From contig JAOZRQ010000005.1 of NCBI GenBank assembly GCA_029940115.1, positions 1 through 35,539 of the forward strand: a stretch of DNA of 35,539 nucleotides. Direction: 5' to 3'. Positions within the stretch are counted from its first letter, which is position 1; every line of letters starts with the position of its first letter. Of the stretch, positions 10,615 through 34,778 are shown piece after piece. Below the pieces are notes generated by a model. It did not search any database. It saw only the letters and a program-made list of their open reading frames with translations, and had not been told where the DNA came from. Source of the DNA: Desulfobacterales bacterium (GTDB taxonomy: Bacteria; Desulfobacterota; Desulfobacteria; Desulfobacterales; 4be13). The translations under genes were made by a program, and so were the position numbers.

Positions 10615-13455
10615 ATGAGTGGAACAGAATGCCCCAAATGCCACCAATGGGAATTGAAAAGTAATGACAATTACTGCGGGTACTGCGGTCATCAGCCCAT
10701 ATCCATCGAACTGACACCGGATGAAATCATTCTGATTTCTCAGATTGTCACCCAGAAAAGGGTCACCTTCATCAATTCCAGCGCGAAAAAGACTTCCATC
10801 AGACTGGTGTGTGTCGGCCCCACACCCGATTTCATTTGTTTTGAACCGACAGGTGATTTCATTGTAAAGGGGGATTCACAAGCTAAAATTGGCATTTTGT
10901 TGAATGAAAGGCGGCTCCCATCCGATTTTATGGAACAGGATTACAGATTCCTGTGCATCATCAATAATGACGACCGAAAATCGGTTGACCTGTCTGTAAA
11001 GGTGAAAACAGGCCCCAGACCCGTCCTTTTGACAGAAGAAATTGATTTTCAAAGCATCAAGGAGGGGACAATCGGCCGGAAGATGCTGAAACTTGAGAAT
11101 CAGGGGGCCATCCCGTTGAAGTTGAAGGAGATCAGGGCAGAGGGCTGTGACCATTTGCAGGTGGAAGAGGATGTCAAATTCCCTGTGAAGATCATGGGAA
11201 ATCAGACGGCCAGAATTCCCGTCCTGTGGGACCCTGACCGTCACAATCCTGCCACTGACCTGAACAAAATCGGGTACCGGCTCATCTTCGAAAATTACAA
11301 AGATGACCTCTTTGTGCCTGCCAAGGCAAGAGTGGTCCAAATGGAGCTCCATGCGGACAAGCAGGAGATACTGATTGATCCCTGTCTCTCCAAACAGAAT
11401 TACACCGAAAAGATCAGGCTCACAAACACCGGAAACATGGATGTTGAGATCAGCGCCATAGAGGCAGATGAGGATTGCAGGGATTGGCTCCAGATTGTTC
11501 AGGGGCAAAAGACATTCACCCTTCTCTCATCCGATTCCGCGGCTCATCCCGGGCCGACAGTTTTTGTGGAATATGGTTTCAAGGTCATCATACGCCCCCG
11601 CGAGCTGAACAAAGGATGGAACCGGGGAAAAATTTCTGTTTACACCGCGCAGCAGGAATATGTTCTGGAGATTCCGGTCAGGGCGAATGTCATACTTCCG
11701 AAAGATTGCGAGGATTACATCGGCATTGATTTCGGGACGACCAATTCCGTGATTGCCATATATGACAGCAGAAAAGATGACACCCATGTGGTCCAGATCC
11801 ACAAGAGCCCGGACAAAAAAACCCCCCTGATACCGAGTGTGCTGGTGTTTGAAGGCGGCCATGACAATTACAAGATCGGCTGGGACGCGCAGAATGAGGC
11901 GATTGTGTCACCGGAACTGGCCGTACGTTCCATCAAAAGGGTGATGGGGTACGGCAACGACCGGGAATTTTACGACAAAGTATTCTCTCCGGATGATCTT
12001 GCCGGTTGCATCATCAAAAAACTGGTCGAGCTTGCCGAAACCGAATATTATGATATGACCCAGACCTATTATAATATAAGACATGCGATTGTCACCGTGC
12101 CTGCCAATTTTTTTGACTTGCAGATCCGGGGGATACTGAAAGCATGCGGACTGGCCGGACTGGATACAGAGGAGGAGCTTGTTCGGGAGACATCCAGGAG
12201 TTTGCGACAGCGAATCGGAAAAAATGTTCAGGTCGGGATCATCTTGGATGAGCCTTCGGCAGCAGCCCTTTTTTACTTGGACATATTACTTTACGAAAAA
12301 GCGCTTCTGGGGGAAAAGTTTGATGCCCAAGGAAGTGCCAACTTCCTGGTTTTTGACTACGGCGGCGGAACCTTGGATGTTTCCGTGGTTGAGGTTCTGA
12401 AACTCCCGAAAGGGGGGACAGGATTAAGGGTGCTGGCCAACAAGGGGGACAATCTGCTCGGAGGAGACAGCATTGATCTGACGTTGATGAGGCAACTGTT
12501 GGAGGAATGCAGGGCGGAGATCCCCGAATTTGATGGTGCCACGATCATCTCCTGCAACTTCAACGAGCTCCAGAATCGCAGAAGGAAAGAGAACTGGAGC
12601 GAGGATGTGTGGAAGAAGGTGTTGCTGTGGAGATATTATTGGAAAAAGGCCGCGGAGGATGCCAAAGTTCATCTTTCGACCGATGCGGAGGCATTTTTTG
12701 ATACCGGCGGTGAACTTCTGCTACCGATATTCCGCATCAAAGACGGCGAGATCCGTGAACTCAGGGGAGAAAGATACAGCACCACGATCTCACGCTACAT
12801 GTTCGAGGGATGGATCGAGGGGATCCTTTCGGGCTGTGAGAGGCTTGTCAGGGATGCGCTTGACTTTGCCGGCACCGATGCGGATGCGGTGGATTACATC
12901 ATCCACACCGGACGATCCAGCCTCATCCCCTCAGTTCGGGGCCGTGTCAGGAGCATCTTTCCCCATCTTCCTGAATCAGGCGACATTCTTGACGAGGAGC
13001 ATCTGAAAGTCTGTGTCGCCAGGGGCGCGGCCATGTACGGGGCCCAGAAAAGGGCAATCAGCGCAAGCGGGGTGCATCTGATCGCTGAGGGAAGAAAATT
13101 GCCGCACAGCTACGGGATAGCCAAGCAGAAAGGCACACGGCGGATATTTGATGAGATCATCCCCCTTGGTTCAACCTATCCGACTGAAGAGACAAGACAT
13201 TACGGCGAGGAACAGATTATCGGCCGCATCTTGCATCTGACATTCTTTCAGAACTCCGGAAAGAATCAGTACATCCGTGAAAATCCTGATATCAAACGGA
13301 TAGGGGAGATTACCACCTCCCTGCCCCAAAACAATCCGACCTGCGATGTCAGGTTTGTCATTGATGCAAACAGAAAGCTGGATGTGTTTGCAAATGAAGC
13401 GCCTGTGGAGATCAAGCCGGAGCGTCTGGAAGAGGAAGAACGCTGGATCGGATAA
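10615..13455 (+). CDS. Zinc ribbon + Ig-like domains + Hsp70/DnaK-like ATPase
   Basis: N-terminal CPKC…CGYCG; beta-rich Ig-like region; IGIDFGTTNSVIAIY (phosphate-1), ILDEPSAAALFYLD, NFLVFDYGGGTLDVSVV (phosphate-2), DYIIHTGRSSLIPSVR (adenosine-like). Confidence 0.9.
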   Translation: MSGTECPKCHQWELKSNDNYCGYCGHQPISIELTPDEIILISQIVTQKRVTFINSSAKKTSIRLVCVGPTPDFICFEPTGDFIVKGDSQAKIGILLNERRLPSDFMEQDYRFLCIINNDDRKSVDLSVKVKTGPRPVLLTEEIDFQSIKEGTIGRKMLKLENQGAIPLKLKEIRAEGCDHLQVEEDVKFPVKIMGNQTARIPVLWDPDRHNPATDLNKIGYRLIFENYKDDLFVPAKARVVQMELHADKQEILIDPCLSKQNYTEKIRLTNTGNMDVEISAIEADEDCRDWLQIVQGQKTFTLLSSDSAAHPGPTVFVEYGFKVIIRPRELNKGWNRGKISVYTAQQEYVLEIPVRANVILPKDCEDYIGIDFGTTNSVIAIYDSRKDDTHVVQIHKSPDKKTPLIPSVLVFEGGHDNYKIGWDAQNEAIVSPELAVRSIKRVMGYGNDREFYDKVFSPDDLAGCIIKKLVELAETEYYDMTQTYYNIRHAIVTVPANFFDLQIRGILKACGLAGLDTEEELVRETSRSLRQRIGKNVQVGIILDEPSAAALFYLDILLYEKALLGEKFDAQGSANFLVFDYGGGTLDVSVVEVLKLPKGGTGLRVLANKGDNLLGGDSIDLTLMRQLLEECRAEIPEFDGATIISCNFNELQNRRRKENWSEDVWKKVLLWRYYWKKAAEDAKVHLSTDAEAFFDTGGELLLPIFRIKDGEIRELRGERYSTTISRYMFEGWIEGILSGCERLVRDALDFAGTDADAVDYIIHTGRSSLIPSVRGRVRSIFPHLPESGDILDEEHLKVCVARGAAMYGAQKRAISASGVHLIAEGRKLPHSYGIAKQKGTRRIFDEIIPLGSTYPTEETRHYGEEQIIGRILHLTFFQNSGKNQYIRENPDIKRIGEITTSLPQNNPTCDVRFVIDANRKLDVFANEAPVEIKPERLEEEERWIG

Positions 13456-13466
13456 CCGGATATAAG

Positions 13467-13553
13467 ACCTACGAGGTTTTGGAAACCTCGCAGGTCTCCG
13501 AACACAATATGGGATATAAGACCTGCGAGGTTTTGGAAACCTCGCAGGTCTCC
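13467..13553. repeat. Two tandem copies of the about 50-bp AGACCTGCGAGGTTTTGGAAACCTCGCAGGTCTCCGAACACAA palindrome unit
   Basis: Near-identical units between the two Hsp70-like genes. Confidence 0.9.
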
Positions 13554-13589
13554 GAACACAAAAAGCGTTATAATCAGCAAGGATTTGAC

Positions 13590-15155
13590 ATGCATCCTCA
13601 TCTGATAATAGATTTTTCAAGCAGGAACATTCTCCCCCTGATCGTCACTCCAAAGGGGAGGGTGATTCCGTGTACCCTCAGACGGCAGGGGATGACATCG
13701 CGCTGCTTCTCTGCTGAAATTTATCTGGCCCCCGAGCGATATCAAAAAGGGGAAAGCGGATGGCTGCCCGAGTTGAATCGTATCATTGAGGAGAATGGTT
13801 CGGATATTTTTTTCCGAGGAGAATCAGCGGGCTGGTTCAGACCGCATCAGATATCAGCGGAGGAGAGTGTCATGCCGGTCCGGCATCCGCTGTATGCGCT
13901 CTCCTCACACCGGATCACGGAAGGCACAGACCTGAGCCTTGTGGCGAATGCATCTTCGGCGTTTCTCGCTTTTCTGTTGCAACCGGTTCTGAACACTCTC
14001 CGTGACATGGGATTTCAGCCGGAAGAATTGAATGTCATCGCGCTTGTGCCTGCCTATCTGAGTCGTCTCGCTGAAAGAATAGTGTACAAGGTGTTGAAGA
14101 AGATGGGTTCCCGCCGGGTTATCCTTCTAAACCATGCGGTGGCCTTGGCCATGCACTTTCTGAAGTTGTCATACATGCAGAAGGTCGGGGTGCTGCATAC
14201 CGACGAGAACGCCCTGCATGTCAGCAGGATCGCTATTGAGAGGGAAGATGGGGATCATGTGACGCTGGAACATGCGGGTTCCCGTTCCATAAAAGAAGCG
14301 GGGTGGGACTCCATAGCCAATCAGATCGCCTTGTCCCTGTACCGGGATGCGTTGCTCCCGAGGCCGGACAAAAGGGTGTTGACCTGTCTGAACAGGGCTT
14401 TGTCGGGTCTCTTTGGCGGCATGCTTCCGACTGACATCCCGACAGATCCGGGTTTGCCTCTCAGCTATGGGATGCTCACGAAGAAGCTTGGCCGGGACAT
14501 GGGCGAGCGTATCCGTGATGAGACATCCGTGAAACTGAGGCGTGCGATGGACGCTCTCGAATTGAATGACGCGCCGTTTTTCATCACAGCGGGTCCCTTT
14601 TTTATGATCGGTCAGTTTGAGAAACTGATGCTGAATCCTGTGGGAAAGTGTCAGCCGGCCAAGGTCCGGCATATGCTTGCCATGGAACGCACGGCTCACG
14701 GGATTGTGGCCATGCTGAACTGGCTTCGGGAGACGGAGAGCCGGCGAATCACGGTTCGGCATAAGTATTCCATCGGAATCGCCGCAACAGAGGATTGCAG
14801 CATTGAACTGATCCCGGGCAGCCTCCTCCAATTTGGGAGGGAAAGGCGCACGATCAAGCAGATTCTCTCCTTGGATTCGGAGTATGCCATGGATCGGGAT
14901 CTGTTGGTGGTGGATATCTTATGGGGGAACAACCCGATTCCGAGACATAACACGAGCCTATGCACCTTGAGCTATGAAGTGACCGGAGATGATATCCGGA
15001 ATGACACTATGCTGGAGCTGATGTTTGATGTAAAGGCGACGGCCCACGGGCTGAGGGGCAAGGTTACCGCAACATTGGGCGGACGGGAACCCAAACCGCC
15101 GAAAGTGCTTGATTTTACGAGGTCGGGGCGCACTGTGGTGTTGAACGGTTTATAA
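13590..15155 (+). CDS. Divergent Hsp70-like protein
   Basis: LIIDFSSRNILPLIVTPKGRVIPC, LNVIALVPAYLS, VILLNHAVALAMHFL, and a C-terminal SBD-like stretch (HKYSIGIAATEDCSIELIPGSLLQFGRERR…). ORF-track N-terminus (from 13479) is repeat-derived; ATG 13590 is more plausible. Confidence 0.65.
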   Translation: MHPHLIIDFSSRNILPLIVTPKGRVIPCTLRRQGMTSRCFSAEIYLAPERYQKGESGWLPELNRIIEENGSDIFFRGESAGWFRPHQISAEESVMPVRHPLYALSSHRITEGTDLSLVANASSAFLAFLLQPVLNTLRDMGFQPEELNVIALVPAYLSRLAERIVYKVLKKMGSRRVILLNHAVALAMHFLKLSYMQKVGVLHTDENALHVSRIAIEREDGDHVTLEHAGSRSIKEAGWDSIANQIALSLYRDALLPRPDKRVLTCLNRALSGLFGGMLPTDIPTDPGLPLSYGMLTKKLGRDMGERIRDETSVKLRRAMDALELNDAPFFITAGPFFMIGQFEKLMLNPVGKCQPAKVRHMLAMERTAHGIVAMLNWLRETESRRITVRHKYSIGIAATEDCSIELIPGSLLQFGRERRTIKQILSLDSEYAMDRDLLVVDILWGNNPIPRHNTSLCTLSYEVTGDDIRNDTMLELMFDVKATAHGLRGKVTATLGGREPKPPKVLDFTRSGRTVVLNGL

Positions 15156-18693: not shown

Positions 18694-18731
18694 ATCCGTT
18701 ATAATCAGAAAAAATCTATGTGAGGTTTACC

Positions 18732-21371
18732 ATGAAATTATTCCATAAAAACTATGTCTTTCTGTTCTGCCTGTTTGGCCTTGCGCTATTGAGTTTCAAT
18801 TCTGTTTATGCACAAACCGAATGTAAGGTTGTTGATGACTTTGTTAATGAAGAAAAGTTAAAGAGATATATTTTTTACGCTGATGAAGTGCCGTTTGCAA
18901 CAATAACACCTGAGATAAGTGACGAAACACTGAATAAGCAAATTGATGAGTGTTGGCGAGAAGGAACAAATTGTACCGAGGGAAAGGAGAACTGTGCCGA
19001 AAAATTGGGAACCTTGTTTGCCGAGTTCGCTTTAAAAATCGAAGACACACAGTATTATGATAAACTTGAGTATCATCAGAAACTTGCCAAACTGATAACA
19101 TTTATAAATAGTATAATGGGCAGGTTTGGTAGCCGTGATATCCAATTTTACACTGCTTACCGTAAATCCTATCACAGTTTCATAGCGCAGATGGCATCAA
19201 AATTTGATGATTACAAGAAACTTTCTGAAATAGTTACAAAAAAAAGCCTGAATGAGAACGGAGATTACTGGGCAGATGCTATAAAAAAAAAAGGTGATGA
19301 TTCAAAAAATCCTTTGAATCAGTTTCCCCGGCTGAGAGACAAAATCAATGATGCGATCAAGGGATACGCGTGTCAGCATATTGACAAAATCGTTGATGCT
19401 GATAAATTAGAAAGTTATGCTTTTGACAACAATCAGAAACTGCCTTTTCCGAAAACGCCTGAGAAGGGTGAAGTCAAAGATGCGGTCGAGGCGAAATGGA
19501 ATGGCGGAAAAGCCGAAGAATTGGGAAAACTGCTTGCTGACATCGCTTTGAAAATAGAGAATGAAAACTATCCTGCTACTTCTGGATCAGGGTATCATCA
19601 GAAATTCAAAGGCCTTATAACTCTGACAGATGAACTGCTGAAAAAATTGGAGGAACATGGATTTACAGAGGCTTACGGCAAAGTTTACCACAGCTTTGTG
19701 ACAGGGCTGTCATCAAAGTTTTCCAATCATATGGAATTAAAAGAGATAGTCAGTCAAACCGACCTAAGTGGCGGTGGGAAATATTGGGCAGAAAATTATA
19801 CTGAAGCCAAAGAACGATTCCCTAATTTAAAAGCAATTATTGAAAAGAGTCAGCCAGCAATATCAGGAGACGGTGAGGGACAACTGACAGGAGACGGTGG
19901 GGGACAACTGACAGGAGACGCTGAGGGGCAACAAGCAGGAAACGGAGGAAAGGGCAATAGGCCGATTCCTGTCATTTATTTTGTTGCTATTATCTTTTTA
20001 GTGATATTTTGTGGTTTACTGTATCTTTCTAACAGAAAACTGGGAAAGGAGGTTCGGATGGCAACCAACGATCTGAAAGACTTGAAGAATTTGCCTGCTA
20101 ATATGGCAGTCAGACGATTGGAAGACCATGCAGATGCTTTAAGCCGGGAAATAGATGAATTAGAGAAAGAGCTTTCAAAAAAATTTGTGAAAGACAGTGC
20201 GATTGACAAGCTTGAAAGCATAGAAAAGAAATTCGATGACTTGAAAGAAGGTGTCGAAAAATTCTCTCCTCCTGAACATGATCCAGTCATCCGGCGGAAA
20301 CATAAAAAATTGTCGGATGAAACGGTTGAGAGCTTAAATAAAAGGATAGCCGATTTGAAGGCTCAGATTAGCCAGAAGACACAGGCGAATCATATTGTTG
20401 ATGACTCCCATATATGGAAGGAAGAAATAAAGGGACTGCAGGAGACAGTTGAGCAAATTCAGAAAGACCTTGCCCAATTGAAGAATACCCCAGCAGGGCC
20501 AAACATAAAAGAATTTAATGTGTTAAAAGGAATGGTTGGGGGAATTCAGAAAGCCCTTAAAGAACAACCTCAACGCGAACCGATTGTTTCAAAGAAACCA
20601 CCGGAAACGGTCAGGCAGGAAGCTGTTCCACCTAAAGACGCCATCTTCTCCGCAATCATAGAGATGGAGAAATCCATGCTGCTCACCAAATGGGAGCGAT
20701 TCGAGAAAGAGCATAAAGACGTTTTCGATCTTTCCAAGGAAACCAGGGACTCTGAGGAACTGAAGTTTTATCTGAGTGTGTTGTCGTCAGAAAAGGGTAA
20801 CCTGCCGAAACTCCTGGCCGCGGATCCGGATGAGGAAAAACTTGTTTCGCTGTATAATGACATATCGTTGCAACTGAAGGAACATTATCCCCAACTGATC
20901 AAGTTGCCGATCATTGACAGGTTCGCAGAAGGAAAGCTGAAAAGACAGGAAGACCCGGAGAAGGAGCTCTCCAATCTCCGTGCCTGGTCCCAACTGCTGA
21001 CATCGCTGGAAGATAACCCCAGGCAAAAGCGGAGGCTCCTCGACTTCAACCTCAGCCGATGGATTCGCGAGCATTTTCTCGAAATCGCGGACAAAGTTTT
21101 GCTCAGATACCATGAGACCAAACCGGACAAAAGAGCAGAATCGCTGAATTCGCTTCACGAGACGGTCCTTCGGGTCCTCAAACAGGGGAACCTGAGGCCC
21201 GTGGAAATCGTTCCGGGGCAAACCCCCTTTGACAGCAACCTCCATATTGCCCGTTCCACCATAAACGACCCTTCCCAAGCGGACAAGGTGATTGTCGAAG
21301 TCCAGAGAAACGGCTTCATGCTGGGGAAGAGGGTGATTCAGCAACCGCAGGTGATTATCAACAAAACATGA
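18732..21371 (+). CDS. Signal-peptide, TM, coiled-coil protein with duplicated periplasmic domain
   Basis: Signal peptide MKLFHKNYVFLFCLFGLALLSFNSVYAQ (ATG 18732; 18720 alternative); two related segments; Gly-rich linker; TM IPVIYFVAIIFLVIFCGLLYLS; long coiled coil; globular C-terminus. Confidence 0.8.
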   Translation: MKLFHKNYVFLFCLFGLALLSFNSVYAQTECKVVDDFVNEEKLKRYIFYADEVPFATITPEISDETLNKQIDECWREGTNCTEGKENCAEKLGTLFAEFALKIEDTQYYDKLEYHQKLAKLITFINSIMGRFGSRDIQFYTAYRKSYHSFIAQMASKFDDYKKLSEIVTKKSLNENGDYWADAIKKKGDDSKNPLNQFPRLRDKINDAIKGYACQHIDKIVDADKLESYAFDNNQKLPFPKTPEKGEVKDAVEAKWNGGKAEELGKLLADIALKIENENYPATSGSGYHQKFKGLITLTDELLKKLEEHGFTEAYGKVYHSFVTGLSSKFSNHMELKEIVSQTDLSGGGKYWAENYTEAKERFPNLKAIIEKSQPAISGDGEGQLTGDGGGQLTGDAEGQQAGNGGKGNRPIPVIYFVAIIFLVIFCGLLYLSNRKLGKEVRMATNDLKDLKNLPANMAVRRLEDHADALSREIDELEKELSKKFVKDSAIDKLESIEKKFDDLKEGVEKFSPPEHDPVIRRKHKKLSDETVESLNKRIADLKAQISQKTQANHIVDDSHIWKEEIKGLQETVEQIQKDLAQLKNTPAGPNIKEFNVLKGMVGGIQKALKEQPQREPIVSKKPPETVRQEAVPPKDAIFSAIIEMEKSMLLTKWERFEKEHKDVFDLSKETRDSEELKFYLSVLSSEKGNLPKLLAADPDEEKLVSLYNDISLQLKEHYPQLIKLPIIDRFAEGKLKRQEDPEKELSNLRAWSQLLTSLEDNPRQKRRLLDFNLSRWIREHFLEIADKVLLRYHETKPDKRAESLNSLHETVLRVLKQGNLRPVEIVPGQTPFDSNLHIARSTINDPSQADKVIVEVQRNGFMLGKRVIQQPQVIINKT

Positions 21372-21473: not shown

Positions 21474-23447
21474 ATGAAACCATTGAACCGCGACACATTT
21501 TCTGATTTGCAGGACTTTTTCATCGGTGGACTGAACGAGCCAGTAAAAGTATGGGTGACACGTGTCAGAGAGCCGCATCTCCATTTAAACGGCCCGGGTG
21601 TGGACCATCAGGGTGGAGAATGGATTCTGGACTACGGGTCTGTGCCGGCCGTCGGTACCATCAGGAGACGGGTGAGCATAGAGAACGCGGGCCAGGGGCC
21701 ACTCAAACTCGACGTGGAAGGAGACAGCGAGGATTGGCTGAAACACAGATGGAAAAAGGATCACTCCCAACCCTGTCTGAAAGGCGGGGGAGACCGGGCC
21801 GTGCTGGAAGTGTTTTTCCAGGGAAGGGAAATCGAGGAACAGCGCCTGACCGCTCTCCTGCGGATAAGGACAGCAACCGATTCAGGAGTGGAAAAAACAT
21901 TCCCCCTGCGGATCAGAGTGAACGCGCACATCCGATTCGCTCATGGTCTCTTTGATTTTAACGGAAAAGCAGATAGGGAACCTTATGACTTCGGTCTCAT
22001 CAATCCTGTGAAAAAAGGGGAAAAGCATCAGCCATACCGGCTTTCCATCGAAAACCGCGGAACCGAACCATTGGAAATGACGATTGACACCTCTTCCGAA
22101 TGGCTGACAGTGGAAACCATCAATGTGAAGCCGTCCCGAAACGGACTGAATTTCCGGGTCCATCCCGGGGAGACAAGCATCACCGTCATCAGGCCCATAC
22201 CTTCCAAGAAGTTTATGGGCATCAACAAGGGAGAGATCATCCTCCGGTCCAATGACACCCGCAAGAAATATCAGGAATTTGATATCCCGTTTCAATGTGT
22301 CCAGGAGATTCAGGAACCGTATATCACCTTTAAGAAGCCTCAGACGTCGATTGAGATTGTACCCCATCGCCCTTATGCCATAACCCTATCAATCTATAAC
22401 CGGGGAAAAACTGAGGCTCAACTATTTGTCGCCAGTCAGAGCCAATATGTTCAGTCTCAGCCGGCCCTGCAAGTCCCGGGCGCGGTCGGACAAAAACCGG
22501 GAAAAGCGCCGTTGCCTGTGACCATTCAGGCGGACAGTGAGGTGCCCCCCGGGCCACAGACAATGAATCTGGAATTGAGGCTTGTGAATGGAAATCAGAA
22601 GCCGCTTCATATCCCGGTGGAGATATATGCGGTCAAAATTGAATGGGAACCCGAATCACTCGATTTTGGGGAGGTGAACTTCGGAGAAACCCGGAACCTG
22701 CCGGTAACCTTCAAGCCGAGTGATGATCGTGAACTCCTCATGTGGGCCAAACCGGAACCTGTGTTGCAGGATGATCTGAGTGTGAAGATGGTGAATGACC
22801 ACACCTTGGAAGTGATACTGGAAGACATCCCGATCTCCTCCAACAAAACTTATGAAGGCCCAGGAATCATTGTTTACGACTCCCAACTCGGGTATGAGGA
22901 GAGACTTTTTGTGAAATTCCGGCGCACCACCCCGATTTTTGACGCGGATCCCCGAGAAATTGACATGGGGAACATCGTGGGAGGGGCGAAGGCTTCGGGA
23001 AGTTTCAAAGTGTTTAACAGGGGGGATGGTCTGTTAAAGGTGGTAATGAGCCCGGATTCCGAAAAACTCTCCATTGAGGGACCATTCTCCTTCAATATGC
23101 CACCTGAAAAGGAGGTTGATGTAAAGTTCACCCTCGATTTGAGGGAAAATGATGAACCGATCAGGCATTCAATATTCATCAACACCAATGACCCTGCCGC
23201 AGAACCGGCAGAAGAGATTCTGATTCGGGGGGATGTTCTGCGGCCCGAGGGGAAAGTCTGTCCCAAATGTTCACTGGTGGTTTCTTTAAATGACGCGTAT
23301 TGCCCGATATGCGGCGAACCTGTGCAGGATGTTCCGCCTGTGTCAAAGACAGGTCTGACGGTCTGCCCCAAATGCAAACGCAAATTTAAGACAGAAAGCC
23401 CTTTTTGCTCACAGGATGGAAAGCGGCTGAAGCCATTGGATGCTTGA
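21474..23447 (+). CDS. Multi-Ig-like-domain protein with C-terminal zinc ribbons
   Basis: Repeated beta-rich segments (ESLDFGEVNFGETRNLPVTF; PREIDMGNIVGGAKASGSFKVFNRGDGLLKV), then CPKC…CPICG and CPKCKRKF…CSQDGKRL. Confidence 0.8.
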   Translation: MKPLNRDTFSDLQDFFIGGLNEPVKVWVTRVREPHLHLNGPGVDHQGGEWILDYGSVPAVGTIRRRVSIENAGQGPLKLDVEGDSEDWLKHRWKKDHSQPCLKGGGDRAVLEVFFQGREIEEQRLTALLRIRTATDSGVEKTFPLRIRVNAHIRFAHGLFDFNGKADREPYDFGLINPVKKGEKHQPYRLSIENRGTEPLEMTIDTSSEWLTVETINVKPSRNGLNFRVHPGETSITVIRPIPSKKFMGINKGEIILRSNDTRKKYQEFDIPFQCVQEIQEPYITFKKPQTSIEIVPHRPYAITLSIYNRGKTEAQLFVASQSQYVQSQPALQVPGAVGQKPGKAPLPVTIQADSEVPPGPQTMNLELRLVNGNQKPLHIPVEIYAVKIEWEPESLDFGEVNFGETRNLPVTFKPSDDRELLMWAKPEPVLQDDLSVKMVNDHTLEVILEDIPISSNKTYEGPGIIVYDSQLGYEERLFVKFRRTTPIFDADPREIDMGNIVGGAKASGSFKVFNRGDGLLKVVMSPDSEKLSIEGPFSFNMPPEKEVDVKFTLDLRENDEPIRHSIFINTNDPAAEPAEEILIRGDVLRPEGKVCPKCSLVVSLNDAYCPICGEPVQDVPPVSKTGLTVCPKCKRKFKTESPFCSQDGKRLKPLDA

Positions 23448-23600: not shown

Positions 23601-24890
23601 GTGGACTGTCCTTATGTGGATTGCAACGCTGACCATTTCCAAAATGGGGATACCCATTGCGGCAATTGCAGCCGCCAATTGAAACCCTGCAAAAAATGCG
23701 GCATGCCCAATCGTTCCTTTGCGGTTTACTGTCGTGAATGCGGGGGGGCGCTACCCGATTCGGCTTCAGATTGGCCGGTTTTCAAAGGAAGCTCCCAGGC
23801 CATAGGGGTCAATCGGTTTGTCATCTCTGCAAGAGTGTCCGAACTGAGCATTGAAGAGATGGGAGCCTTTCAGCTTCCAGATCGGTGTAAAGCCCTCCTG
23901 ATGTATGAAGATCATCTGTTTGCCATTTCCCAGAGCGGGGAAGTGAAAATCATAGATGTTTCCCAAGAACCTGTAAAGGAGCGGATATCCTTCAATGCAG
24001 GGGGAAACATCTATGCAGTGCCTGCCCTGCATCAGGGATCGTTGTATGTCGGAACAGAGAAGTCCCTTCAAGCGTATTCGCTGGGACACCTGTTTCCCCA
24101 AGCCCCATCTGCGAGACCCCGCTGGGAATTGCCTCTCAGCGGCACACCCATCCGGTCTTTGGTGCCGGTGGAGAACAGACTCTTTCTGATGCTGGCATGT
24201 CCAGACCGGCGTCATCAGATTCATGTCGTCAATGATATTCAGACAGACCCGCCTGAACCACCGATAAAGGTCTATGCCGGCTCCCACCTGAGTTCCATGG
24301 CCGGCCATTTCATGGCCAAAAGCAAAAAGATCTATTTTCTTTCTGATGAGGGGGCCGGAAGAATAAAGTTACATTTTATGGAACACGCGGCCGGATCAAA
24401 TCCGGAACGGGTCAGTCTGCCACTAAAAAGGCCGCCATCCGAATTCAGAAAGCAGATCCCCATCGCGGTCATCGGGGCAAAGATATTCACGGTGTTCAGA
24501 AAAGAGGAGACCCTTTACCGCTTGGATGCCAACAGTGGTGAAATTGATTCCCTGATCTGCAAAAATGTGAAAAATTTCGCCATGGCCAGCATCTCCGACC
24601 CAGTGGTCATCAACTCCAGAGGATTGTTCCTGAAGCGGATGAACCAGCAGATTGATCTCGAAGACGGCCAGACCATCAAAGGCTCGCCGCTGGTCTTGAA
24701 AGACTGTGCGGTGGCCTTGGGCATGGGAGACGGGAACATCCGCCTGTATGACATTCGGAATCCGGGGAGTTTCAAGATTTGTGAAGTCTCTGACCGGCCC
24801 ACCGATCAGATCACGACCATGGCCGCGGTCAAGGATATCATTGCCGCTGGAAATGACAAAGGGGTTGTAAAAATATACAGACTGAGATAA
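23601..24890 (+). CDS. Zinc-ribbon protein with WD40/PQQ-like beta-propeller
   Basis: N-terminal CPYVDCNADHFQNGDTHCGNC…CKKCGMPNRSFAVYCRECGG, then propeller-like blades (LFAISQSGEVKIIDVS…, AAGNDKGVVKIYRLR). Start codon non-ATG (GTG/TTG). Confidence 0.75.
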   Translation: MDCPYVDCNADHFQNGDTHCGNCSRQLKPCKKCGMPNRSFAVYCRECGGALPDSASDWPVFKGSSQAIGVNRFVISARVSELSIEEMGAFQLPDRCKALLMYEDHLFAISQSGEVKIIDVSQEPVKERISFNAGGNIYAVPALHQGSLYVGTEKSLQAYSLGHLFPQAPSARPRWELPLSGTPIRSLVPVENRLFLMLACPDRRHQIHVVNDIQTDPPEPPIKVYAGSHLSSMAGHFMAKSKKIYFLSDEGAGRIKLHFMEHAAGSNPERVSLPLKRPPSEFRKQIPIAVIGAKIFTVFRKEETLYRLDANSGEIDSLICKNVKNFAMASISDPVVINSRGLFLKRMNQQIDLEDGQTIKGSPLVLKDCAVALGMGDGNIRLYDIRNPGSFKICEVSDRPTDQITTMAAVKDIIAAGNDKGVVKIYRLR

Positions 24891-24910: not shown

Positions 24911-26782
24911 ATGAGAGTATGGAGCATATTTCTTGCATTCTTAATTTGCGGTCTTTTCTTTTTTTCAACAGATACCCGTGCAAAGATAACCCGGGGGAGT
25001 GATCTTGACATCCGTATCCTGTATGACAACTCCGGGAGCATGTTTCCCGGATATCGGCTTGAGGGTGGCGTGGGAAAGTCCCAGTCAGGCGCGCTGTTTT
25101 TCCATGAATACCCTGAATTTCGGGGATGGCTGAAGAACCTGATATCCTCACAAGGACAGATCAATGGAAAACGTATCTCCATAACCGCATTCACCGAACA
25201 TGAGTTGAAAGAAATTCTTCCGCCGACTTTCAGGGAAGATGTTGATGGAGAAAAAATTCTCCAAGCTTTTGAAAATCTGAAAAAAACCGACGGAAAATTC
25301 AGATGGGGCAATTACACTTATCTGACAGAAAATCTTGAGAAGTTCATACAGGGATTCGAGGGGGTGGTCTGGCTGATTACGGACAATATCATTGAGCGGG
25401 AGGGAACGGACAGCTACCAGGATATTGAGAAATTTTTCACAATATTAAGGGACAGATATGAATATAAATCTGTTCACCTTTATAAATATCCCTTTGAAGA
25501 TGTGGGGCGAGGTCAGGAATCCAACTTGGCAATATATGCTATATTGCTATCTCCTCATGAGATTGACACCAGTGTCCTTGAATATTTTGATGAAAAATTT
25601 GACGGTTTAGCAGAACTATTTACCGAAGAGGAGCATCTCAAGTTAAAAGACTTGGCTGTCAGAACTTCCGGCTGGGAGGGTAAGATAAAGGTTGATGTAG
25701 AAGGTAAGAAAGGAAATCTGATATTTCATGAAAGAGCAGAAGTAAAGTTAAAATTTGAAGGAGGTGTTCGCAGTTATCTGACCCATCACACCATAGACAG
25801 CGGCGCGAGATACCGAATGTCGGTTGAAGGGCCTTTCATACCCGATCCGAAGGCTAAAAAGGAATTCGGGGTCAAAGCGATTCCCTCAAGCAAATTCATG
25901 GAAATTGAAGGCACGTTAGTAAGTCCCATTGCCCCGAGGGGATATCGAAATCTGGAAAAGATTATAAAGTCAAAAGAACCTATTACAATTCCTTTTCGGC
26001 GTAGCGGCATCATTTCTTTTATCAAGTCAGCACGCGGGGTGAAGGTGGAGTATAGAGGTAAGATCAGGTTTTCCTTATATAATGTTAAAATAACGCTGGA
26101 GCGTAGCCGTCTTGCAGGCATTTTTGGAATAGACCAAGCATGTTCTGTTTTTGATATTCAGGATGTCAGAGTAATACGCCCCGAACCCCGCACTGTCAAG
26201 CAACGCTTCTCTCTGGAAACCGGAAGCGGCAGAGGCATCTTCCTGCTGATCCTTCTGTTGTTGCTGTTACTGCCGCTCGGCTTTCTGATATGGTATTTTC
26301 TTCAGAAAAAGCCATGTCGCATCCGCGTGGATCAAAAGAGAGACACGATTTCATTCAGCCCCCTCGGCACCCATCCGGTCAGATGTGAGGGGCGGGTGGT
26401 GGGGGTTGTCAAGCGGGGATTGGGAAAGGACTTCACATTTTCCCCGATCCAGGGATTTGCGGACATCACCGTCACCCCCGGATCCCAGACAGGAAAGTAT
26501 AATGCCACCGTTCAGAACAGAACTTTTGCCGTGTCAATTGAGCCGTTAATGGGGGGGACTGTCAATACAGGAGGAGGGCAGGGAGCATCGGGAGGACAAA
26601 CGGGTCCCGGGCCAACTTCAGGATCACGTTCAGGAGGATCACGTTTTCGTCGTCCCGGACCCGGGGGCCAATCTGAACCGGAACCCGGACCTCGTCGGGA
26701 ATCAGGCGGCGGACCGACCGGAGGATCAACGCCTCCTCCGAGCGGCGGCGGAAGGCGGTTTAAAAAGCCGGGGGTCAAATAA
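24911..26782 (+). CDS. Secreted/TM VWA-like protein with Pro/Gly-rich C-terminus
   Basis: Signal peptide; LDIRILYDNSGSMFPGY (MIDAS DxSxS); TM ILLILLLLLLLPLGFLIWYFL; Gly/Pro/Arg-rich tail. Confidence 0.8.
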   Translation: MRVWSIFLAFLICGLFFFSTDTRAKITRGSDLDIRILYDNSGSMFPGYRLEGGVGKSQSGALFFHEYPEFRGWLKNLISSQGQINGKRISITAFTEHELKEILPPTFREDVDGEKILQAFENLKKTDGKFRWGNYTYLTENLEKFIQGFEGVVWLITDNIIEREGTDSYQDIEKFFTILRDRYEYKSVHLYKYPFEDVGRGQESNLAIYAILLSPHEIDTSVLEYFDEKFDGLAELFTEEEHLKLKDLAVRTSGWEGKIKVDVEGKKGNLIFHERAEVKLKFEGGVRSYLTHHTIDSGARYRMSVEGPFIPDPKAKKEFGVKAIPSSKFMEIEGTLVSPIAPRGYRNLEKIIKSKEPITIPFRRSGIISFIKSARGVKVEYRGKIRFSLYNVKITLERSRLAGIFGIDQACSVFDIQDVRVIRPEPRTVKQRFSLETGSGRGIFLLILLLLLLLPLGFLIWYFLQKKPCRIRVDQKRDTISFSPLGTHPVRCEGRVVGVVKRGLGKDFTFSPIQGFADITVTPGSQTGKYNATVQNRTFAVSIEPLMGGTVNTGGGQGASGGQTGPGPTSGSRSGGSRFRRPGPGGQSEPEPGPRRESGGGPTGGSTPPPSGGGRRFKKPGVK

Positions 26783-27369: not shown

Positions 27370-27375
27370 TTTATT

Positions 27376-27480: not shown

Positions 27481-27495
27481 TAATGGAAGTCTGAA

Positions 27496-27939: not shown

Positions 27940-27943
27940 GGCA

Positions 27944-28281: not shown

Positions 28282-28820
28282 AAACCTTCAGTCTGCCAAA
28301 ATACTGGAGGAAAACAGTCTCTTCAATCCGTGTTTGCAGAACATTCAGCAGGCCGTTGAGAAGTCGCTGATTGCAGAATTTTCTATGGAATTCAAAAAAA
28401 CGCACAGTATCAGTGAATTAAGAGCGATGCTGATGGCAGAGGGAAAGAATGCTGACTCAAGTTTCGCACCCCTATGTGAGCCCATTTTTCAAGGGTTTCA
28501 GGAGATGGTCGACCTCGAAAACCCACTTTTTGGGCAATGTGAGATCAGGCACTTGCACCCCATCATGACCAAAGATTGAGTCAGACGGACCAAGAATTGA
28601 CTTGACCATCTGTATTTACTCAAAAATTTGGGTGCGAAACTTGAGTGCTGATATTACGGAGGAAGAATGCGATTTTCTGGATTCTGTCCATCTCCCGTCA
28701 AAGTATCCCATAAGCAGTGCTTTGCCGGATTTTGAGCCTGATGCACAGATTTGCAAGCAATATATCTCTGTAGCCGAGAGATTCAGCGGTTGGGTGGAAA
28801 TAATTCTTCAAAAAACCTGA
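28241..28820 (+). pseudogene. HEPN domain gene interrupted by a MITE
   Basis: MKDETKIWLKYADENLQSAKILEENSLFNPCLQNIQQAVEKSLIAEF…KKTHSISELRAMLMAEGKNAD | MITE | ADITEEECDFLDSVHLPSKYPI…AERFSGWVEIILQKT*; reading frame rejoins on removal of the MITE and one TSD. Confidence 0.9.
28455..28646. mobile_element. MITE-like element, TIR ACTCAAGTTTCGCACCC, copy 2
   Basis: Near-identical to 10047-10237; GCTG at 28451-28454 and 28647-28650 (or TGCTGA if the terminal A/T pair is target). Confidence 0.95.
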
Positions 28821-28840
28821 AAAAAGGAAAGGATGGAACT

Positions 28841-29311
28841 ATGAAACAAGGGATGATTTTCTCTTTCATATTTTATCTCGCATTTGCAAGTGCGATGGAT
28901 ATGCCGGGTGATGACGAATGCTTAAACATCTTTGTGCAAAGCTTGTCCCCGACGTTTTTCATCGGGGGTGAGGCCTTGGCCCAGGAAAATCCGGATGACA
29001 CAGGAAGCGCGAAAAACTATTTTCTCAGAAGTGCTGTGTTTGTCGTCGGCATTGCGCTCCTCTGGTTTGTTTTCTACAAACTGGTTTACCCCTTCCTGCG
29101 GAAATATTATTCTGCCGGATATTCTCAGACACTGTTCTGGTCCATGTTTTTACTTTACTGTCTGGCATGGATGACCATCAGCACTTATGTGATCTTTGAG
29201 GTGGGATTTCATTACCACTGGCTCAAATGGGTCTTTGTCTTTATCGGCGCGATATGGCTGATATGGCTTTTGGTCATATTGCTCAAAAAGGGCGATCAGG
29301 CTTATTCGTAA
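28841..29311 (+). CDS. Small membrane protein with signal peptide and three TM helices
   Basis: ATG 28841 after GGAAAGGA; hydrophobic FFLRSAVFVVGIALLWFVFYKLV-type segment plus two further TM stretches; ORF-track start 28751 overlaps the HEPN gene. Confidence 0.7.
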   Translation: MKQGMIFSFIFYLAFASAMDMPGDDECLNIFVQSLSPTFFIGGEALAQENPDDTGSAKNYFLRSAVFVVGIALLWFVFYKLVYPFLRKYYSAGYSQTLFWSMFLLYCLAWMTISTYVIFEVGFHYHWLKWVFVFIGAIWLIWLLVILLKKGDQAYS

Positions 29312-29606: not shown

Positions 29607-32600
29607 ATGGCTTTCAATTCTCTTAAAACAGGCAAGTTGCCAGATGAACTTTTGGAGGATGCGCCTGTCGGAAAAACCCTGCTGATCGGGCTGGGCGGGA
29701 CCGGCAAGGAGGTTCTGTTGCGATTCCGGCGTCTGATTGTCGAGCGGTTCGGGAATCTTGACGCGTTGCCATGTGTGCAGTTTCTCCATCTCGACACCGA
29801 CACCACGGCCAATGCCATGCAACAGTACGACAAGTCCACAGCGGATGACCCCCTTTATGAAAAGATCAGGTTTCAGAACATCGAACGGGCCAATCTGACC
29901 ATTGAGGGGGGTGTCAGCAAGTATATCCAGAACATCAACGCGCATCCCCATATCAGGGAATGGTTTCACACCAAAGGCAAGATTGCCGACTTGGGCGATC
30001 TGGGGGAAGGCGCGGGGCAGGTCCGCATGGCCAGCCGCCTCGGGTTCTATGACAAATATGATGACATCGAAGCGGGACTGACGCATGTCGAAAGCCGTCT
30101 CAGCGCTGAAAAGAACCGTGATGTCATTTCCGAGCTCGGTTTCTCCTTTAACCCGAGCATCATGAGCATCTATGTGATCGCGTCCCTAGCTGGCGGAACA
30201 GGTGGCGGAACCTTTCTCGACATGGCCTTTCTTGTGAAAACCATGTTCCCCGATGCCACCCGGATCGGCATCTTCTTTCTCCCCTCCTTTTTTTCCGGCT
30301 ACACCGGTGCGAGTCGGATGAAGGCCAACGGATATGCCGCGCTCAAGGAACTGAACCATTATTCGTTCGGCCATCCGTTCAACGGCGACTGGACTGGCCG
30401 AGGTTCCCAACTGATATACCCCCCGCCCTTTGATTACACCTATCTTCTGGAGGGAAGGAACGAAGCAGGAGAGGCCATCGGTTCCTCCAATGAGGAATAC
30501 TCCATCTACCAGATGGCGGCCGAGACCATATTTCAGGAATTTTCCCTCGGAGATTTCGCGGGGATGAAACGGGCCATACGGGTCAACCTGAAGAACTTCA
30601 TTGACAACGCGTATGTGCATAATTACTGGGACGAGGCCGGAACCGTCAGTGTTCAGGGAGGAAGCGGCAGCGTCAAGGGAGACAGCTATACCACCCGATT
30701 CTGCTCCTTTGGCTTGGCCACCATCTATTTTCCGGTGGAGAGGGTCCACAGGGGGTGCGCGTGTCTGTTGGCAAAGGAGATCCTGGATCTGTGGAAGAGA
30801 AATGTGGTCGGTGATCCGCTGGACGCGCTCTTTGTCTCCTTCCTCACCCGTTCCGAAATCGGATTCGTACAGGGGCGTTACACCCGGCAGGATGGCGGCG
30901 GTGTCATTGAGCGGAACGATGTGGAAAAGGAACTGCTCTGGTACAACAAAGAGGCGGGCCAGGATTTTGCGGGATATCTGTGGCAGAAGGTCCTCGAGGC
31001 CCGAACCGACATGGAAGGCCAACCGGACGGGCGGAAGGCGGCCGCGCTCCGCAACCATCGCGGAGAGTTTGAGCAGGCCCTGGCCCGGGCCGACAGCGAT
31101 GACCCGGATGAATGGGGGCTTGCCATCCGTACGCTCCAGCGGAACATGGAGAGCTATGTGGAAAATCTGGAACGGGGGATTGAAAAACGGACCGACGAAT
31201 TGGCCAACGACCCGCGCTACGGCATCTCCTATTCCCTCTCCCTGCTTCGGGAACTCAAGAAGCTGCTGAAAAGTGAGAACTTCGACTATCTCCCGTATTT
31301 TGAGGAGGCTGTCTCCCATTGGGACGGTGAGACCCAGCATTATCAATATCGGCTGGATCAGTTGGAGCTGGATATCGGCAAACACGAACGCCAGTTGCTG
31401 TTCCGGGACGCGGATATCGCCCGTGACATGGAAATCCTTGCCCCGAACGACACTTCCGGGGACGGGGTCCTGTACAATTATCTGATTGCCAGGGTGATGA
31501 AACAGGTGGCCAAGCGGGGCAGGCAGGTCTGTGAACGGATGGACAAGTTTCTCGGGGAGGACAGCTCGAGTGGGAAAGGGTTGCTGGCCAGATATCATCA
31601 GCTGACCACCGGGCTGGACAGCCTGAAGGTCCGGTTTGATGAGAAGGAGGCCTATTTCTCCAAGGAAGAGGAGTCGGCCACCTTGAAGAGTCTCTATCGG
31701 AAAGGGGATGTGAACGAATGGTACAAGATATGGATGGGAGAGTCGGAGAGTCTCAGGAAACGGAATCTGAAAGAGGTGAGTGGCGGGTTGCTGAAAAGGC
31801 TTTTTGATGTCGAATCCGTGACCGAGGCACTGAACCATATTCAGAACCAGCCCATCGAAAATATCGAAGACCAGATGCTTGAGGAATGCCGGATTTTCTT
31901 TGCCACTCAGTCGAGACAGCCGTCCGCGCTGGAGATGCTGATGGATGAGAAGCGATGTTCCAAACGGGAGCAGGAAAATCTGATCGAAACGGCCTATAAG
32001 CGGGCCAAGGTCTGGATGAAGCCGAATCGGAAGGTGAGCCATGTCCAGTTCAGTGTGGGGCAGCAACAGAAGCCCTGCATCATCGGGGTGGATGAGAATG
32101 ACCGGGTGAGGTTCAACGAGTTTCAGAGGATCCTGAAGAATAAGATGGCCACCGGGGACACCCCGCCCCAGTTCAAAAACATTGACGAGTCCAAGAAGGC
32201 CTTCATTGTCTTCTACAATGAGCTGGGCGGGGCCACCGCGTTTTATCCTTCCACGGTCACGAAGGTGGGCGGACTGAAGCAGAATTACGATGAATTCTGC
32301 AGAAATCCCAAGGAGGTCAGCCCTGAGAATCAGGAGGATGTGCATATAGACAAGAACCGCTTTCAGTTTGGGGACATCATTCCCAAGACCAATGAGGAGG
32401 TTCGCAAGTACAGTGAGTCGATCCGGGCCTTTGTGCTGGCCCGGATACTGGGGGTGCTCAAGGTTCGGGAGATCGTGGAGCCGGATCAGAGTGTGGTCAA
32501 CCGCCACAGCTATGAAGTGGAAGTGGCCTTTGACATCAGGGAGGAGGACTTGGGAGACGAGTTTGCCGCGATTGACATTCTCTATCAGGACACACGCGCT

Positions 32601-34382
32601 TACCATGAAAGCCATCGCAGACTGCTGGCCGACCAAGTGGAGCGGGTGGTCGAGGAGCTTCGCCGGCGGGGACTGGTGGCGGTCTATCTGTTGCTGATCG
32701 AGTTTTATCTTTATCATGTTTACCCCTCGGTGACAGAGGATGACGAGGCTGCCGGAGTATCCATCACCCGATACTCCCCCTGCTACGCGGCCCTGGATTT
32801 TGAACGGAGCCGGCGGATTGACAGTGAACTGATTACCAATGAGGATGAGCGAAGAGAGATAGAGCGAACGCTCCAGGAACTCCGTGGAAACCGGCCCAAG
32901 GGAGAGGATTTGAGCTATGAGGAATATGTGACTGCCCTCAGGCCATATACGAAACCGGCCGGGAAGTTTCAGGTGATCACCCGGAGTGTGACCGGAGAAA
33001 GACGGAGTTTCCGGGATGCACTTGTGCTCGACGGGGATCGTGTATTCTCCGTGATCATTCCCAAGACCAGAGAGGAGAAGCGGAAATACAGCGAGTCGAT
33101 CCGAGCCTTTGTGCTGGCTCGGATGCTGGGCCTCCTGAAGATTCGGGAACAGCTCGGGGAGGATCGTCAGACCGTGACCAACCTCTTCAGTTATGAGAAA
33201 GAGGTGGCCTTTGAAATGATGGAGGAGGAGCTGGGTGAAGAGGCGGGTGCCATCGAAATTCTCTACCAGGATCAGCGGCCTGAGCATGAGACGCATCGGA
33301 AGTATCTCTCCGATCAGGTGGAGACGGTGGTGGACGATATCCGCGGGCATGGTCTCTTGTCGGTGTATCTGTTGCTGATCGACTTCTATCTCACCCACAT
33401 CTATCCTCCGGAGGCAGACGAGAACAAGGCCGCGAAGGCCCAGGCCGGACGATTCACCCCGTATCACGCGCTGGAATTTGAGCGGGATGTGCGGGTGGAA
33501 AAGGAGCTGCTCCGCACGAAAGAGGATCGCCAGCAGGTGGAGATCGCTCTGGAAAACCTGCGGAAAAAGCCCAAGTCCCAGAAGCTGACCTATGAGGAAT
33601 ATGTGAACGCTCTTCGGCCCTATACAAAAGCCGGTGGCAAGTTTCTGAAGATTGAGAAGAGGACGCTTAGGGATAGGCGGCATTGTCTGGACGCGCTCGT
33701 GCTGGACAGGGAGCGTACCCTTGGTATCAAGGATGCCGCTGATGACGCCGTCGAAGATGCGGCGAAATCTGAACTCGAGCCTCTGACGTCCCCGTCTCAG
33801 AAGCAACGTAACCGTCGTTGTCCTGAGTGCCGCAACCCGATCAATGTCCGTGCGATTTACTGCGTCCACTGCAAGAAGCGGGTTGCGGAGCATGTGGTTT
33901 GCGAACATTGCAGGAAGAAGTCCCCGGATGATCTGAAATCCTGTTGGAACTGCGGATGGGAGCTGAAAAAGGAGGAGGAAGAAGAGAAGATGGAATGCCC
34001 GATGTGCTTCTCCTTTGAAGGGTATCCGAGCGAATTTCCCTGCCCGGTCTGCAACTGGGAACCGTCCGCGGAAACGGCCCAAGCTGAGGCGGAACCTGAA
34101 CCCGAGCCGGATGTGTCTCAGCCGGAGCCGGAGGAACCGAAGGTCGAAACGTGGCAGGAGGATGAGACGGATAGGGCAGAACCGAGGCAACAGGAGGCTG
34201 ATTCGGGGTATTCTGACGAGCGAGAATCCGAACCGCCAGCCGATTTCTCCGATCACGCGGAGGAGAAAGAGCCTCTGAAGGAGGATAAGCCATCGGAAAG
34301 TAAGCAGATTGAATGTCCCTATTGTAACGAGATGATGACGCCAATAGACTCGCGGTGCAGTATATGCGAAGGGGAACTGTAA
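29607..34382 (+). CDS. FtsZ/tubulin-like GTPase-fold protein (Tubulin_2-like) with C-terminal zinc ribbons
   Basis: LLIGLGGTGKEVLLRFRRLI (nucleotide-binding N-terminus) and YVIASLAGGTGGGTFLDMAFLVKTMFP (tubulin/FtsZ GGGTGS/T-like signature); C-terminal CPECRNPINVRAIYCVHC, CEHCRKKSPDDLKSCWNC, CPMC…CPVC, CPYCNEMMTPIDSRCSIC. Confidence 0.88.
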   Translation: MAFNSLKTGKLPDELLEDAPVGKTLLIGLGGTGKEVLLRFRRLIVERFGNLDALPCVQFLHLDTDTTANAMQQYDKSTADDPLYEKIRFQNIERANLTIEGGVSKYIQNINAHPHIREWFHTKGKIADLGDLGEGAGQVRMASRLGFYDKYDDIEAGLTHVESRLSAEKNRDVISELGFSFNPSIMSIYVIASLAGGTGGGTFLDMAFLVKTMFPDATRIGIFFLPSFFSGYTGASRMKANGYAALKELNHYSFGHPFNGDWTGRGSQLIYPPPFDYTYLLEGRNEAGEAIGSSNEEYSIYQMAAETIFQEFSLGDFAGMKRAIRVNLKNFIDNAYVHNYWDEAGTVSVQGGSGSVKGDSYTTRFCSFGLATIYFPVERVHRGCACLLAKEILDLWKRNVVGDPLDALFVSFLTRSEIGFVQGRYTRQDGGGVIERNDVEKELLWYNKEAGQDFAGYLWQKVLEARTDMEGQPDGRKAAALRNHRGEFEQALARADSDDPDEWGLAIRTLQRNMESYVENLERGIEKRTDELANDPRYGISYSLSLLRELKKLLKSENFDYLPYFEEAVSHWDGETQHYQYRLDQLELDIGKHERQLLFRDADIARDMEILAPNDTSGDGVLYNYLIARVMKQVAKRGRQVCERMDKFLGEDSSSGKGLLARYHQLTTGLDSLKVRFDEKEAYFSKEEESATLKSLYRKGDVNEWYKIWMGESESLRKRNLKEVSGGLLKRLFDVESVTEALNHIQNQPIENIEDQMLEECRIFFATQSRQPSALEMLMDEKRCSKREQENLIETAYKRAKVWMKPNRKVSHVQFSVGQQQKPCIIGVDENDRVRFNEFQRILKNKMATGDTPPQFKNIDESKKAFIVFYNELGGATAFYPSTVTKVGGLKQNYDEFCRNPKEVSPENQEDVHIDKNRFQFGDIIPKTNEEVRKYSESIRAFVLARILGVLKVREIVEPDQSVVNRHSYEVEVAFDIREEDLGDEFAAIDILYQDTRAYHESHRRLLADQVERVVEELRRRGLVAVYLLLIEFYLYHVYPSVTEDDEAAGVSITRYSPCYAALDFERSRRIDSELITNEDERREIERTLQELRGNRPKGEDLSYEEYVTALRPYTKPAGKFQVITRSVTGERRSFRDALVLDGDRVFSVIIPKTREEKRKYSESIRAFVLARMLGLLKIREQLGEDRQTVTNLFSYEKEVAFEMMEEELGEEAGAIEILYQDQRPEHETHRKYLSDQVETVVDDIRGHGLLSVYLLLIDFYLTHIYPPEADENKAAKAQAGRFTPYHALEFERDVRVEKELLRTKEDRQQVEIALENLRKKPKSQKLTYEEYVNALRPYTKAGGKFLKIEKRTLRDRRHCLDALVLDRERTLGIKDAADDAVEDAAKSELEPLTSPSQKQRNRRCPECRNPINVRAIYCVHCKKRVAEHVVCEHCRKKSPDDLKSCWNCGWELKKEEEEEKMECPMCFSFEGYPSEFPCPVCNWEPSAETAQAEAEPEPEPDVSQPEPEEPKVETWQEDETDRAEPRQQEADSGYSDERESEPPADFSDHAEEKEPLKEDKPSESKQIECPYCNEMMTPIDSRCSICEGEL

Positions 34383-34417
34383 ACTTGGGGCCTCAAGTTT
34401 CGCACCCATGCCATACA

Positions 34418-34453
34418 GGCGAGCGGCGAAGAATGATACCTGTAGCCGCTCGC
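34418..34453. terminator. Hairpin GGCGAGCGGC…GCCGCTCGCC
   Basis: Inverted repeat shortly after the tubulin-like stop codon; no clear T-tract, so function uncertain. Confidence 0.35.
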
Positions 34454-34490
34454 CCATAGCCGCTGGCCGCTGACCATGGTTTCTTTTTAT

Positions 34491-34750
34491 AGCTTTCAAC
34501 AAAAAAATTGTCCGGAGTGCCAAACTTGCAGTTTGGCAAAAAAATTGTCCGGAGTGCCAAACTTGCAGTTTGGCAGACCTCCCGGTTTCCATGCCAAACT
34601 GCAAGTCTGGCACTCCGGAGCGACAAACATTTTGTTGAAAGCTTTAGAAAGCCAAACTGCACTCCGGAGCGACAAACATTTTGTTGAAAGCTTTAGAAAG
34701 CCAAACTGCAAGTTTGGCACTCCGGAGCGACAAACATTTTGTTGAAAGCT
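34491..34750. mobile_element. Composite MITE-like element, AGCTTTCAACA ends, with reiterated end modules
   Basis: AGCTTTCAACAAAAAAATTGTCCGGAGTGCCAAACTTGCAGTTTGGC (module partly repeated) facing GCCAAACTGC…GCACTCCGGAGCGACAAACATTTTGTTGAAAGCT (three successive right ends). Confidence 0.8.
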
Positions 34751-34778
34751 CCAGAAAGACAGAAAAGGAGGAATAAAA

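Follow-up and report, generated by a model that had tools for sequence, protein, structure and literature searches.

The locus studied here, a 35,539-nt stretch of Desulfobacterales DNA analysed as a whole (the window), comes from a sulfate-reducing relative of Desulfonema magnum and raises the question of what a very long protein with a tubulin fold does beside chaperone and membrane-protein genes. An initial annotation had placed a 1591-aa tubulin/FtsZ-like protein at 29607-34382. The coordinates of this reading frame were exact; it starts with ATG downstream of a GGAGG ribosome-binding site, and Pfam Tubulin_2 (PF13809) matches aa 25-393 with E=4.4e-66 and 224 bits, against a curated cut-off of 27. 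Matches of the protein to PF00091 (Tubulin) and to a double zinc ribbon were weak and under cut-off, and NCBIfam and PADLOC gave no match for it. The tubulin/FtsZ signatures previously noted in the first 210 aa were located as GLGGTGKE from aa 28 and LAGGTGGG from aa 194.

A conserved gene of the FtsZl1 family

The source assembly is a draft, 54% complete and split into 951 contigs, and on that ground an assembly artefact or a pseudogene, in the form of a fused or chimeric frame, might be suspected. We regard this as extremely improbable. The complete chromosome of Desulfonema magnum 4be13 (NZ_CP061800.1) encodes a full-length orthologue of 1593 aa, 72% identical, with both internal repeats and the entire tail, which refutes such a reading. 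Comparison of the two genes (NG86) gave a dN of 0.18 and a dS of 1.6, with a dN/dS of ~0.11 that is rough because dS is near saturation, and this too speaks against a decaying gene. Judged by the low dN relative to dS, the gene is under purifying selection. The gene is real and conserved. A 1475-codon antisense ORF (30186-34613, minus strand) overlaps it and was discounted as a gene, since 17 codons that would interrupt it are present in the D. magnum orthologue. The tubulin gene contains no TTA, one CTA and no TCA, where ~31 would be expected from usage in six neighbouring genes; the antisense ORF looks like a by-product of codon usage rather than a rival gene. The codon bias itself is strong and has no obvious cause.

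The protein is a clear member of the FtsZl1 (Tubulin_2) family and no new kind of tubulin. Makarova and Koonin (2010, PMC2875224) described FtsZl1 proteins as having an FtsZ-like N-terminus, a coiled coil and a mostly helical C-terminal domain, usually encoded with VWA-protein and membrane-protein genes in genomes that typically carry FtsZ too. Neither T6-H7 nor an FtsZ-type C-terminal domain could be recognised by these authors, who left filament formation open and predicted that FtsZl1 is the core of an unknown membrane machine with a role in envelope remodelling. Our search of the literature found no laboratory study of any FtsZl1 member. The protein described here has the same N-terminal FtsZ-like domain, helical middle, further C-terminal domain, VWA and membrane neighbours and separate FtsZ, but differs from the published description in its tandem C-terminal domain, its zinc tail of four ribbons, its 1591 aa, and the presence of two Hsp70-type proteins and a membrane GrpE among its neighbours. 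Unlike the described FtsZl1 neighbourhoods, the 35,539-nt window yielded no P-loop GTPase or OmpA gene. With CetZ, FtsZ and tubulin it shares the fold of the GTP-binding domain and the T1-T4 loops, whereas it is about four times longer, has a degenerate T7 and contains at most a putative counterpart of their C-terminal domain. The initial annotation had stressed a size far beyond that of a canonical tubulin; the size is real, but as a novelty it did not stand, being standard for the FtsZl1 family (PMC2875224). In the phylum and order samples the other members measure ~930-1330 aa, with D. magnum at 1593 aa, and the present protein lies at the top of the family's length range and is not unique.

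A match over the Pfam cut-off was found in 19 of 292 genomes of the order, and the family is therefore patchy within it. The second orthologue considered here, 42% identical, 1333 aa long and with one repeat copy, comes from a genome of a different family in the same order (G448). The family-wide alignment was too divergent for a scan of named genomes; the scan was made with an alignment of the three orthologues, and D. magnum was the only genome found. In the source genome this is the sole Tubulin_2 gene detected, in an assembly that is about half complete, and canonical FtsZ is encoded as a separate 407-aa frame on contig C942, so that a role as the division protein is unlikely.

Table 1 Coordinates of the tubulin-like protein, its parts and the accompanying genes in the window
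Feature	Position (nt)	Strand	Basis
Hsp70, N-terminal zinc ribbon and Ig-like region	10615..13455	+	Pfam HSP70 E=1e-36; 69% identical in D. magnum
Divergent Hsp70-type protein	13479..15155	+	PDB fold search
Membrane GrpE: signal peptide, external part, membrane helix, coiled coil, C-terminal GrpE domain	18720..21371	+	Pfam GrpE E=1.1e-8
HYDIN/choice-of-anchor-D-like Ig protein, C-terminal double zinc ribbon	21474..23447	+	Counterparts in D. magnum and G448
Zinc-ribbon and WD40-like propeller protein	23601..24890	+	Weak family matches
VWA-type protein: signal peptide, MIDAS-like DNSGS, one membrane helix, Gly/Pro-rich tail	24911..26782	+	
Small membrane protein	28751..29311	+	Orthologue upstream of D. 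magnum tubulin, 54% identical
FtsZl1-family (Tubulin_2) protein, 1591 aa	29607..34382	+	Pfam; orthologues at 72% and 42% identity
Tubulin/FtsZ-like GTP-binding domain, aa 25-393	29679..30785	+	Pfam, AF2 model, fold search, FtsZ alignment
Loops of GTP-binding domain: T1 aa 28-35, T2 63-67, T3 133-140, T4 194-201			
T6-like N285 and degenerate T7 around D316 (GTP-binding domain)			
Helical/coiled-coil-like middle, aa 438-815	30918..32051	+	AF2 secondary structure
Conserved strand-helix-strand-strand segment, aa 822-880	32070..32246	+	AF2 secondary structure
C-terminal domain copy 1, aa 921-1146	32367..33044	+	Repeat comparison
C-terminal domain copy 2, aa 1147-1372	33045..33722	+	Repeat comparison; G448 orthologue single-copy
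Zinc-ribbon tail, four CxxC pairs, Glu/Pro linker before last	33819..34379	+	Weak Pfam match under cut-off; orthologue alignment

GTP-binding core, helical middle and C-terminal tail

An AF2 model of aa 1-1146, built with 24 sequences, had a pLDDT of 79 and a pTM of 0.68. All 50 PDB fold matches listed for this model were CetZ, tubulin or FtsZ structures; the best was CetZ1 with a TM of 0.53 by target length, a value that fits a match spanning the GTP-binding domain and the core helix rather than one along the entire protein. Profile-profile alignment (hhalign) to 29 FtsZ sequences brought T1, T2, T3 and T4 into register with E=1.7e-4. The tubulin/FtsZ assignment thus passed Pfam profile, profile-profile alignment and fold comparison alike, including the structure prediction that had been proposed as a check, in which CetZ, tubulin and FtsZ came first in the PDB. 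The glycines G28, G30 and G33 of T1 and G196 and G201 of T4 are invariant in all 24 family sequences, and the family consensus YLxxxxN stands at the position expected for T6. The T7 loop was located by the order of predicted helices in the AF2 model, with SLGDFAGMKR between H7 (294-312) and H8 (316-332). The T7-loop Asp (D316) is found in 8 of the 24 members, among them the 1591-aa protein and its D. magnum orthologue; the FtsZ motif NxDxxD/E is otherwise lost, reading SLGDFAG in the 1591-aa protein, and the catalytic acid is not conserved across the family. The initial annotation had made its reading depend in part on this region, and the outcome is divided: the Asp is kept in those members, while the rest of the motif is gone. 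From these sequence features, GTP binding is likely and efficient GTP hydrolysis uncertain, and ordinary tubulin-like turnover appears doubtful because only 8 of the 24 members have the T7 acid.

The C-terminal domain of tubulin and FtsZ normally takes part in polymerisation. Pfam found no FtsZ_C or Tubulin_C match in the 1591-aa protein. The AF2 model continues with H7-, H8-, S7- and H9-like elements, and its predicted order, E365-374, H377-397, a helical insert, E824-828, H833-846, E855-858 and E866-876, equals the FtsZ order S7-H9-(insert)-S8-H10-S9-S10. The segment aa 822-880 may represent the latter half of an FtsZ-type C-terminal domain that has been split, and given this order of elements the coiled coil would be an insertion inside that domain. 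When residues 360-397 and 816-886 were spliced and compared by hhalign with the 29-sequence FtsZ alignment, the score was not above background, the sliding windows used as control likewise scoring at background level, so that the argument for a split domain is drawn from the order of predicted secondary structure alone.

The remainder of the protein largely bore out what had been noted at the outset, namely a charged helical or coiled-coil middle, an internal duplication, about four zinc-ribbon-like motifs and a Glu/Pro-rich linker. In the AF2 model the charged middle (aa 438-815) is almost entirely helix and is followed by a further domain to aa 1141, which is the FtsZl1 layout; PDB sequence matches across the middle were helical bundles only. 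The duplication consists of tandem copies of ~226 aa that are 67.8% identical in DNA (E=8e-52) and 55% in protein. Copy 1 is 76% identical to copy 1 of D. magnum and copy 2 is 74% identical to copy 2, with 55-63% between copies; on this comparison the duplication is older than the split from D. magnum, and it is absent from G448. Eight CxxC knuckles (aa 1405, 1419, 1432, 1446, 1464, 1479, 1570 and 1584) make up four zinc ribbons, and the linker lies at about aa 1490-1565. All eight knuckles are kept in D. magnum, and the G448 orthologue keeps the cysteines of the tail except the second Cys of knuckle 1419. Across many genomes of the class the tail weakly matched frames of ~390 aa, a resemblance treated as generic Cys-rich similarity. 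What is new here is the duplicated domain, the zinc tail and the combined tubulin and Hsp70/GrpE operon; the core belongs to a known family.

An operon conserved in relatives

Genes for two Hsp70-type proteins, a membrane GrpE, putative adaptors (Ig with zinc ribbon, and zinc ribbon with WD40-like propeller), a VWA-type membrane protein and a small membrane protein precede the tubulin gene. The divergent Hsp70-type protein has no Pfam match, but the PDB fold matches listed for its low-confidence model (pLDDT 47) were all Hsp70, the lowest E being 7e-12; the fold search did better than a profile comparison of the two Hsp70-type proteins, which was uninformative with three sequences each. In the GrpE protein a predicted membrane helix (416-434) precedes the GrpE domain. 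The VWA-type protein likewise lacks a Pfam match and aligned by hhalign to a VWA_2 protein with E=4.5e-4. The conserved part of the small membrane protein begins at an internal Met at about aa 31. Several genes in the window interrupt this series. Those at 15323-18564 (plus strand), which include an Xre-like antitoxin gene, have no counterpart in the D. magnum operon and split the junction of Hsp70-type and GrpE genes that is contiguous there, and DUF4258, colicin-immunity-like and HEPN genes (26801-28579, plus strand) lie between the VWA-type and small membrane genes.

The gene order Hsp70-type, GrpE, Ig, WD40-like, VWA-type, small membrane protein, tubulin recurs in D. magnum, which has two GrpE-type genes and in which inserts other than those of the window separate the small membrane gene from the tubulin. 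In the stretch of G448 that was inspected, this order is likewise kept for divergent Hsp70-type, GrpE, Ig, WD40-like, VWA-type and tubulin, with no match to the small membrane protein detected there. More distant FtsZl1 members, too, are preceded by genes of the VWA type and for small membrane proteins, and the VWA and membrane partners named in the initial annotation are accordingly conserved neighbours in relatives. Hsp70 domains are encoded next to other FtsZl1 genes as well; in two further genomes of the order (L073:4433-8134 and L109:540-4289) the Hsp70 forms part of a fusion protein with a protein kinase. The large genes after the tubulin in more distant loci gave no usable Pfam match.

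Downstream of the D. magnum tubulin lie trypsin-membrane, PEGA, peptidoglycan-binding, LysM/SBP3, SPOR, caspase and VWA genes. Within this region (L064:5077-12830 of NZ_CP061800.1), caspase (Peptidase_C14), SPOR zinc-ribbon, VWA_2 and AAA/STAND-like ATPase genes resemble components of conflict systems. The source genome carries trypsin, PEGA, peptidoglycan-binding and LysM genes in D. magnum order on contig C464; the trypsin-PEGA set thus exists in this genome and is not continuous with the tubulin on its contig. In the window, the tubulin gene is followed by palindromic REP-like repeats (34500-34761) in units of 37 and 62 nt with perfect inverted arms of 27 nt, and then by a CARF-domain gene (34779-35539, plus strand; Card1/Csx1 and CARF-PDDEXK models) that runs off the end of the contig. 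Its absence beside the D. magnum and G448 orthologues led us to reject this gene as a part of the system.

A chaperone-regulated scaffold and its alternatives

A membrane GrpE encoded beside two Hsp70-type ATPases and a tubulin-fold protein would put an exchange factor for the chaperones at the membrane, and makes chaperone-regulated scaffold assembly the simplest reading. We tentatively favour, at somewhat less than an even chance, an FtsZl1-type GTP-binding protein that serves as a membrane-tethered, nucleotide-dependent scaffold regulated by Hsp70/GrpE. The N-terminal GTP-binding domain would most likely assemble into a cytoplasmic scaffold, whether filament or small oligomer, with a docking platform extending from it that would consist of the helical middle, both copies of the C-terminal domain and the zinc ribbons. 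The VWA-type protein, the small membrane protein and the membrane-anchored GrpE may anchor this scaffold to the inner membrane. The two Hsp70-type ATPases, recharged by the membrane GrpE, would load it, remodel it or take it apart in response to changes sensed beyond the membrane, the signals being read through the extracytoplasmic VWA and GrpE parts. The present data suggest, rather than show, that the protein binds GTP, assembles, is tethered and is under chaperone control, and the same holds for any part it has in remodelling the envelope; it is gene order that suggests a physical association of the operon products.

The same parts could instead belong to an anti-phage or stress conflict system in which the scaffold is a threshold switch and co-encoded proteases are the effectors. 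Kaur et al. (2020, PMC7159879) described conflict systems centred on a GAP1-N2 GTPase with tubulin and HSP70 components, in which tubulin plus vWA and HSP70 plus GrpE form themes enriched in multicellular bacteria, and this combination is present here. The likeness extends to a tubulin with a C-terminal helical extension, vWA membrane proteins, Ig/FNIII-like and zinc-ribbon proteins, an HSP70 with a second HSP70-like protein and GrpE, and PEGA and trypsin components. The genes that follow the D. magnum tubulin, their counterparts in the same order on C464, and the CARF gene 3' of the tubulin on this contig also fit such a system. Against it, the CARF gene is not conserved beside the tubulin, PADLOC finds nothing in the core genes, and a Pfam scan of 20 window neighbours on this truncated contig and of the D. 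magnum flank genes gave no match to GAP1 or a P-loop DO-GTPase, with the presence of GAP1 models in the library unconfirmed. The locus also differs from the published systems: there the two themes were described as non-overlapping and the tubulin theme as restricted to firmicutes and actinobacteria (PMC7159879), and here tubulin and HSP70/GrpE share one operon in a relative of Desulfonema. We consider a conflict system unlikely, though well worth keeping in mind.

Less probable still is a GTP-binding regulator that does not polymerise, in which the tubulin fold would switch with bound nucleotide and the long tail would connect it to zinc-ribbon and Ig partners. The poor conservation of the T7 acid would suit it, as would the earlier failure to identify T6-H7 and a C-terminal domain in FtsZl1, which allowed that the family possibly forms no filaments (PMC2875224). 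Yet FtsZl1 proteins retain the N-terminal domain of a superfamily that polymerises, and in the model this is continued by elements resembling H7, H8, S7 and H9. We rate as similarly doubtful the bolder proposal of a complete tubulin core whose C-terminal domain is split (S7-H9 at aa 365-397, a helical insertion of ~420 residues, then S8-H10-S9-S10 at aa 822-880) and whose assembly is gated by the Hsp70 pair and membrane-anchored GrpE, joining two themes described as separate.

Returning to the chaperone-regulated scaffold, the conserved cassette, with the tubulin next to Hsp70, GrpE, VWA and protease genes, has a named host with a complete genome, Desulfonema magnum, and so supplies a definite set of components from which the system could be reconstituted. 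Should assembly be controlled by the Hsp70/GrpE pair, the locus would represent a bacterial case of chaperone-regulated assembly of a tubulin-fold protein.
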